42,365 nt of DNA, from the NCBI GenBank assembly GCA_947466955.1, contig CANIFM010000004.1, positions 1 through 42,365 on the forward strand, written 5' to 3'. Every line of letters starts with the position of its first letter. Position 1 is the stretch's first letter. A model generated the notes under the pieces. The model made no database searches. It was not told where the DNA came from and saw nothing but the letters and a program-made list of their open reading frames with translations. Positions 22,177 through 23,815 of the stretch are shown here, piece by piece. This stretch comes from Bacteroidota bacterium (lineage in GTDB: Bacteria > Bacteroidota > Bacteroidia > Flavobacteriales > Flavobacteriaceae). Position numbers and translations under genes: made by a program.

Positions 22177-22305
22177 TTTGTAGTAAAAAACGCACTTTAT
22201 CGATTTTTTATACACTTCATCTAAAATATTTAATAACGCTTCTTTATCGCTATACATTTGGTAAACCATAGCAATAGTAGGTAAAGTTAATGGTAGATTT
22301 GGGGC

Positions 22306-22340
22306 AAAAAGGGCGGAAGTAATTTCGCCCTTTTTATTTT
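22306..22340. terminator. Bidirectional-looking terminator hairpin downstream of the purF-like gene
   Basis: AAAAAGGGCGGAAGTAATTTCGCCCTTTTTATTTT; GGGCG/CGCCC stem with flanking A/T runs. Confidence 0.75.
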
Positions 22341-22661
22341 TGTTTCATAAATAATTCACTAAAATAGATTTAATCCAAAAAGATTAGATAATCTATATAA
22401 GAAAAAATTATTTTTTTTCTTACACTTATAAACTGCGTTCTGAATGCTTTAATTTTAGAACTAAAAGATTCTGCTTAAATATTTGTACGTCTATCATCAA
22501 AGTAGTTTAGTATTGATTGATAAAAAAATCACTTATCTGTTCATGCTTTTTTGATTTATGCAAAGTCAAGTAATAAAGTTGATTATGTGTTTTTTATTAT
22601 CTAGTTAACATATTGCCAACAAAACATCATCGTTAGATAAGTGAATTATTGTGTTAAATAC

Positions 22662-22694
22662 TTTGTTGAAATAAGTATTTTTCACTTATATTTG
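22662..22694 (+). promoter_or_regulatory. Promoter with no assigned gene: TTG-N18-TATATTTG
   Basis: CTTTGTTG at 22661-22668 and TATATTTG at 22687-22694. Confidence 0.5.
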
Positions 22695-22998
22695 AACAAT
22701 CATTTATCGCCGATTGTTATAAATAATAAGCGTTTTTTATGGGCGTAAACTTCCGAAGCAGATTTTTTAATAGGCTACGTAACGATAATAAAAAGTGGCT
22801 TTAGCTATACCATTTCAAAATCGGGGTCTTTAATCAATCAAAAAAATCCAAAATACACGAACAATGGAGCGTATTAACGTCACACCACTAAACAGAAGTT
22901 ACGCTTTTAAATAGTTAGTTTTTGCTTTAAAATATGGACGAATTAATTTTTAAAAAAATTTTATCAATTTGTTTTTTTAGTTCTAAGGTATTTACAGT

Positions 22999-23139
22999 TT
23001 AGGGTTTAAATATTTTCGACATTATGGTGTAGTTTTCTGATAATTCAAAAGATACAGATATTTTCTCTACAATATTTGCATAAGTTTCCCAAAAAACGAA
23101 ACTAAAATTATATCTTTTACTTCCAAAAAATAATGAGAT
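22999..23139 (-). pseudogene. Possible 3' remnant of an unidentified gene (47-codon open frame)
   Basis: Reads ISLLFFGSKRYNFSFVFWETYANIVEKISVSFELSENYTIMSKIFKP*; protein-like composition, no plausible start. Confidence 0.3.
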
Positions 23140-23166
23140 TCACCTCCAATTATTTAATTTTTTTAG

Positions 23167-23340
23167 TTTCAAGTGCTTGTCACTAAGTTCAACAACGGTG
23201 GGTCACACGGTCCAGAAATTGGCGAAGCCACTGCGAAATTGCTTATCGAAAGACTCGAAAGTAAAGAAGAAGAAAATCCATACAAAACTACGGTTATTAA
23301 AACTGAATTACGAGAAAGAGAATCTTCGAGAAGGGTTTAG
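23167..23340 (+). pseudogene. C-terminal remnant of a LacI/GalR-family transcriptional regulator
   Basis: Frame +1 reads ...KFNNGGSHGPEIGEATAKLLIERLESKEEENPYKTTVIKTELRERESSRRV*, like the end of a LacI substrate-binding domain. The rest is absent (in-frame stop at 23164). Confidence 0.6.
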
Positions 23341-23341
23341 T

Positions 23342-23460
23342 TTAATTGTTAAAATCGTTAATCGCCTTTTGAATCGAAAATTTAATTTCATTCCAATCTA
23401 ATTTTTGAAAAAGAATTGGAATTACTTCACTTTCGGCATCTTCTTTAATAATTCCAGAAG
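23342..23460 (-). pseudogene. C-terminal remnant of an AbiEii/AbiGii-like nucleotidyltransferase toxin
   Basis: Minus strand reads ...SGIIKEDAESEVIPILFQKLDWNEIKFSIQKAINDFNN*, resembling the EDAE..PxML..xxWxxIKxxI C-terminus of AbiEii proteins. No catalytic region present. Confidence 0.55.
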
Positions 23461-23750
23461 TTCTGGTTGGATTGTTTGAGTTTGTAACATCTAAATTCTG
23501 ATTTATTGATATTAAAAATAGTAGCTAAAAAGGAAAGTGTAACTACATCCAAGTTTCGGAATTCTAAAGAAACTGCTTTAATTGTTTCTAAACTATATAT
23601 TTCTTTGATGATATTCAAATCCTTAATAAGTCCAAATTCTACTACTTTATTAATAATTTGTTCTTTTGAATTTTCAAAACTTAACATAGAAATATCCACA
23701 TCCCAAAATAGATGTTTTGACAAATCATTTACCGAATAGTTAGTTTTCAT
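23445..23750 (-). CDS. DUF6922-like putative antitoxin (AbiEii-associated type)
   Basis: DLSKHLFWDVDISMLSFENSKEQIINKVVEFG...LDVVTLSFLATIFNINKSEFRCYKLKQSNQNFWNY* matches the pattern I recall for the small protein preceding AbiEii toxins in Bacteroidota. Confidence 0.65.
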   Translation of the reverse strand: MKTNYSVNDLSKHLFWDVDISMLSFENSKEQIINKVVEFGLIKDLNIIKEIYSLETIKAVSLEFRNLDVVTLSFLATIFNINKSEFRCYKLKQSNQNFWNY

Positions 23751-23815
23751 TTTTCAAAGTTAATGAAATTAGTTTATTTAAAATATTTCTGATTAACTCA
23801 GTTGGTTAAGTTCTT

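Follow-up and report, generated by a model that had tools for sequence, protein, structure and literature searches.

An orphan DUF6922 antitoxin-like gene beside polA, probably the remnant of a DUF6922/AbiEii pair after a single deletion of about 466 bp

AbiE (AbiEi/AbiEii) is a type IV toxin-antitoxin and abortive infection system whose toxin is a DUF1814/PF08843 nucleotidyltransferase. The antitoxin gene is found upstream of the toxin gene and overlaps it, by 4 nt in S. agalactiae, where mutations in each of motifs I-IV of AbiEii abolish toxicity (PMC3985639). The antitoxin, AbiEi, is a regulator of the winged-helix type and carries an antitoxicity domain at its C-terminus. Toxins of matching fold and motifs are also found in the MenAT systems of M. 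tuberculosis (MenA1/MenT1 and MenA3/MenT3), whose antitoxins belong to several unrelated families (PMC11375011). In addition, bacterial chromosomes contain orphan (solitary) antitoxins and other toxin-antitoxin remnants, in which the antitoxin was kept after toxin loss. The locus described here lies in the window, a 42,365-nt stretch of contig CANIFM010000004.1 (assembly GCA_947466955.1) from a bacterium of the Flavobacteriaceae, and consists of a DUF6922 gene directly after polA and the two ends of an AbiEii gene. The toxin family has the same nucleotidyltransferase domain and motifs as AbiEii, its fold and motifs match those of the MenT toxins, and the upstream, overlapping position of the antitoxin gene is that of AbiE. 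However, the DUF6922 protein is only 101 aa long and is predicted to be all-helical, and the winged-helix and C-terminal antitoxicity domains of AbiEi are unmatched in it; by the searches done here, it also falls outside the described MenA families. Compared with other chromosomal orphan antitoxins, the exact deletion is readable here, thanks to an intact relative that shares the neighbour on the polA side. The locus is an ordinary and clearly readable case of toxin-antitoxin decay, not a new system; it is new as a locus, while its kind is known. In our reading it is probably a polA-side DUF6922/AbiEii remnant produced by a single deletion of about 466 bp, with an antitoxin that is now passive and starting to decay.

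Related antitoxins were sought first in 300 and later in 400 genus genomes, which yielded about twenty, and in a scan of genome contigs the sole named relative was Flavobacterium macrobrachii (L004). Intact DUF6922/AbiEii pairs of Flavobacterium (L005, L044, L045, L006, and L007) share with the window the gene order, an overlap of about 46 bp, and a TAnnTTTG motif just before the antitoxin ATG. They differ in that their toxins are intact (198-203 aa), whereas the window toxin is without residues 17-171. Two of these pairs, L005 and L007, also have polA as neighbour, and at L008 polA adjoins a pair with a broken toxin. In L005 (genome G088), as in the window, polA directly precedes the antitoxin gene; the gene after the antitoxin encodes an intact 200-aa protein that matches PF08843 AbiEii (E 2e-16) as well as several PADLOC AbiEii models. 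The structure model of this toxin has a pLDDT of 95.6; among PDB entries, it agrees best with H. pylori JHP933 and the M. tuberculosis MenT toxins. Poxvirus and ASFV Pfam matches on the same protein were under the curated cut-offs and were disregarded.

The antitoxin-like gene of the window is located at 23445-23750 on the minus strand and encodes 101 aa, from ATG to TAA with no internal stop, as the original prediction had described it. Its product scores 55.8 bits against PF21956 (DUF6922; gathering cut-off 27, E 3.2e-15) and shares 69% identity with its counterpart in the intact L005 pair. As in the intact relatives, the gene is directly upstream of an AbiEii start and overlaps it. Pfam gives DUF6922 only, with no significant match to AbiEi; NCBIfam returned no matches, and no significant match to a solved fold (PDB) was found for the predicted structure. 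PUF/Pumilio matches of the antitoxin profile (E 0.02), which had no supporting fold match, are attributed to chance. DUF6922 carries the label "unknown function," and the literature searched gave no mention of it; we infer that in this pair the antitoxin role falls to DUF6922 and the toxin role to AbiEii. Positioned 4 nt before the antitoxin ATG is TAACTTTG (23755-23762, minus strand), an instance of TAnnTTTG, which we take to be the known Bacteroidota -7 promoter element. This motif stands 4-6 nt before the antitoxin start in 17 of 21 family loci, including all intact pairs, against a chance expectation of 0.007 per locus obtained by shuffling. Every one of the four loci that lack it has a broken toxin, and the window retains it. 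No clear -33 element was seen upstream of the antitoxin.

Two pieces of the toxin gene remain, both on the minus strand. The retained 5' end (23444-23490) begins with the toxin ATG at 23490, comprises codons 1-15 and part of codon 16, and is nested within the 3' end of the antitoxin gene; its translation, MLQTQTIQPELLELL(KK), aligns with residues 1-17 of the toxins from L005 and others. The retained 3' end (23342-23443) encodes EDAESEVIPILFQKLDWNEIKFSIQKAINDFNN, followed by the stop, in a frame other than that of the retained start. The tail frame reported earlier, SGIIKEDAESEVIPILFQKLDWNEIKFSIQKAINDFNN, is present and ends with a TAA stop at 23344-23342. Within it, the true toxin tail starts at E (EDAESEV..., about 23443), and the preceding SGIIK is the tail frame read back through the antitoxin/toxin overlap. 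When the L005 toxin was compared with the genome by tblastn, residues 1-28 matched at the retained 5' end (64% identity, E 0.0068) and residues 171-199 at the retained 3' end (52% identity, E 0.0024), placing AbiEii N- and C-terminal sequence in order. Moreover, a 63-bp stretch of the window DNA is 83% identical to the G177 toxin tail (E 3e-11). As sequence comparisons, these matches to the toxin ends are far beyond chance, and the tblastn match to residues 171-199 and the 63-bp match bear out the suggestion that the second frame is the C-terminus of an AbiEii-type nucleotidyltransferase. The 38-aa tail alone, too short a peptide, gave no significant Pfam or PADLOC match, and comparison with intact relatives was therefore needed; of the HMM matches that had been proposed as a check, the one for the antitoxin (PF21956) was obtained and the Pfam match for the tail was not.

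In a global alignment of the window with L005 DNA across the pair, a single 466-bp gap was found, with good matches on both sides, beginning 2-3 bp past the antitoxin stop codon. Toxin nucleotides 1-47 (23490-23444) are kept, as are the final 102, stop included (23443-23342), and residues 17-171, about three quarters of the toxin gene, are lost. Within the lost segment lie GG31-32 of motif I, R42/D46-x-D48 of motif II, the region of motif III near K120, and K131-D132-xx-D135 of motif IV, whose residues are invariant or nearly so in 18 relatives. Since the motifs that characterize AbiEii (hG[G/S]x15DhD, the motif III K, and +DxxD) all fall within the deleted segment, the window toxin is a pseudogene fragment and not a functional AbiEii member. 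The alignment to intact loci, which had been proposed as the means of placing the junction, thereby upholds the idea of a deletion running from the antitoxin stop into the toxin tail, and with it the loss of the catalytic part. The N-terminus, in contrast, is not wholly missing as had been supposed, since the ATG at 23490 and the first 16 codons stay; nor is the antitoxin "fused" to the toxin tail, its own TAA preceding the junction. The toxin ATG and the tail frame are separated by 47 nt, which leaves the retained pieces out of frame, so that the toxin ATG yields the 22-aa peptide MLQTQTIQPELLELLKKMPKVK (23422-23490, minus strand) and then a stop. With the toxin reading frame gone and this peptide alone in its place, the locus does not encode a functional toxin-antitoxin system.

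The sequence at the junction, GAAGAT (23438-23443, minus strand), is compatible with both sides. It is present in the tails of the relatives L004 and L006 and could plausibly have stood in the 5' flank too (AAG AAG AT-), which would give a microhomology of up to 6 bp, an estimate that depends on the ancestral sequence. We infer that the deletion took place via short matching sequences, by a microhomology mechanism. Toxin genes of this subfamily have their ATG about 46 bp ahead of the antitoxin stop; in one example of the overlap, AGATGTTACAAACTCAAACAATCC, CYKLKQSN is read in one frame and MLQTQTIQ in the other. Because the toxin gene starts inside the antitoxin gene, a deletion can strip nearly all toxin-specific DNA yet spare the antitoxin. 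The history that we propose would begin with an ancestral DUF6922/AbiEii pair just downstream of polA. A single event, probably between short matching sequences, would have deleted about 466 bp, taking residues 17-171 with the entire catalytic core and putting the remaining toxin pieces out of frame; the cut would have begun just after the antitoxin stop, sparing the antitoxin. Judged from the motif, transcription of the antitoxin probably continues from its own -7 element and would give a leaderless or near-leaderless message. With no toxin left to neutralise, the antitoxin would most likely be a passive remnant beginning to decay. What the sequence itself shows is the anatomy, the homology, the limits of the deletion, the frameshift, and the retained promoter-like motif.

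Loci were sorted into classes from antitoxin-seeded and toxin-seeded searches of 400 genus genomes, several of the classified loci being in draft assemblies where single frameshifts could be errors. Intact pairs were found in ten genomes (G088, G487, G177, G497, G251, G221, G164, G480, G273, and G282). A whole antitoxin with a broken or missing toxin was found at six loci: the window, L008 (a nonsense codon, then an integrase-like reading frame in place of the toxin end), L009 (toxin gone), L015 (internal deletion), L016 (frameshifts), and L017 (broken frame). Both genes are broken at a further three (L014, L018, and L019), and searching from both ends of the pair in the 400 genomes gave no locus with an intact subfamily toxin and without an intact antitoxin. 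The first loss fell in the toxin in six of six cases, which has a probability of 0.016 at equal odds and of 0.086 when weighted by gene length; the one-sided decay is therefore suggestive. As genetic evidence, this pattern would point to AbiEii as the harmful partner and to DUF6922 as the antidote. The window locus is among its clearest examples.

The orphan antitoxin carries two changes, W45L and G53S, at columns that are invariant in the other 15 genus sequences compared; in the structure model both positions are within the long helix 42-62. Antitoxins of intact pairs depart at none or one of the invariant columns each, always conservatively, and those of the toxin-less L009 and L016 depart at 2 and 5, respectively. 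Although two changed residues are a small sample, they suggest relaxed selection and favour early decay of the orphan. At about 0.17 against L005, its pairwise dN/dS resembles the values of intact members; it is uninformative on relaxation, because synonymous sites are near saturation. Alternatively, selection may keep the orphan as the anti-addiction or immunity protein that had been suggested, which would neutralise a related AbiEii toxin encoded elsewhere in the genome or arriving on a plasmid, phage, or island. The complete reading frame and the retained TAnnTTTG are what a functional orphan would predict, and related AbiEii toxins were indeed found on plasmids of other genera, although at no more than 43% identity. 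The same genome also contains a second, divergent DUF6922/AbiEii pair with an apparently intact toxin (G000:C14:15591-16392; L003 and L020; PF21956 E 3.5e-24, PF08843 E 1.1e-16), but it is just 28% (antitoxin) and 34% (toxin) identical to the window family. DUF6922 genes overlap AbiEii genes in L057 and L058 (MT839686 and MT835926) as well; these pairs are distant, and they come from unverified, unannotated human-gut contigs filed as phage. General experience with toxin-antitoxin pairs makes cross-neutralisation at such sequence distance unlikely. Against selection also stand the changes at the invariant positions 45 and 53. Retention by selection is unlikely, and the more specific proposal, in which production of the DUF6922 protein continues and shields the cell from related AbiEii toxins carried by incoming elements, is quite improbable. 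If it were true, the nested gene layout, with the toxin start inside the antitoxin, would itself provide a way for toxin loss to leave behind a functional antidote. In the preferred reading, that of a passive remnant, the orphan would be without current function. The locus also offers a natural toxin-free antitoxin for tests of neutralisation and of residue requirement (W45 and G53).

The window comes from a draft genome (265 contigs, 88% complete) in which the junction is known from the assembly, and the deletion might then be an assembly or sequencing artefact, the living strain having an intact pair. This is very improbable: the junction shares at most 6 bp, too short for mis-joining, no high-identity second copy of the toxin sequence was found in the genome, and relatives lost the toxin independently at homologous loci. 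A chance resemblance to AbiEii, with the tail frame part of some unrelated gene, as its lack of a significant Pfam match might allow, is scarcely credible and is refuted by the alignment to L005/L004. Both toxin ends match in the right order and place, and the 63-bp DNA match leads to a relative's toxin tail.

Away from polA, loci of the pair family are found at two or more further fixed positions on chromosomes of the genus, in each case just past a housekeeping-type gene, suggesting a small mobile module with preferred sites. One group of loci (L010, L011, L013, L019, and L048) is found at the 3' end of a tex-like gene, and another (L004, L006, L044, and L045) after a WbqC-like gene. At L007, where the pair adjoins polA, an 81-bp stretch of the polA 3' end is directly repeated on either side of the pair, the two copies being 97.5% identical (bases 1310-1390 and 2377-2457, with the locus read in the antitoxin direction), as if the module had been inserted at the polA end and had duplicated the polA 3' end. 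No such polA 3'-end direct repeat is left in the window. On the other side of the remnant, at 23173-23340 on the plus strand, are apparently the last ~40 codons of a LacI-type regulator, which face the toxin tail one base away and match positions 132-167 of the 167 in Peripla_BP_3 with a score below the cut-off (E 0.01). The ~1 kb upstream of this LacI-type remnant (22177-23172), between it and a purF-like gene, has no long reading frame, and a second decayed gene seems to lie at 22177-23340.
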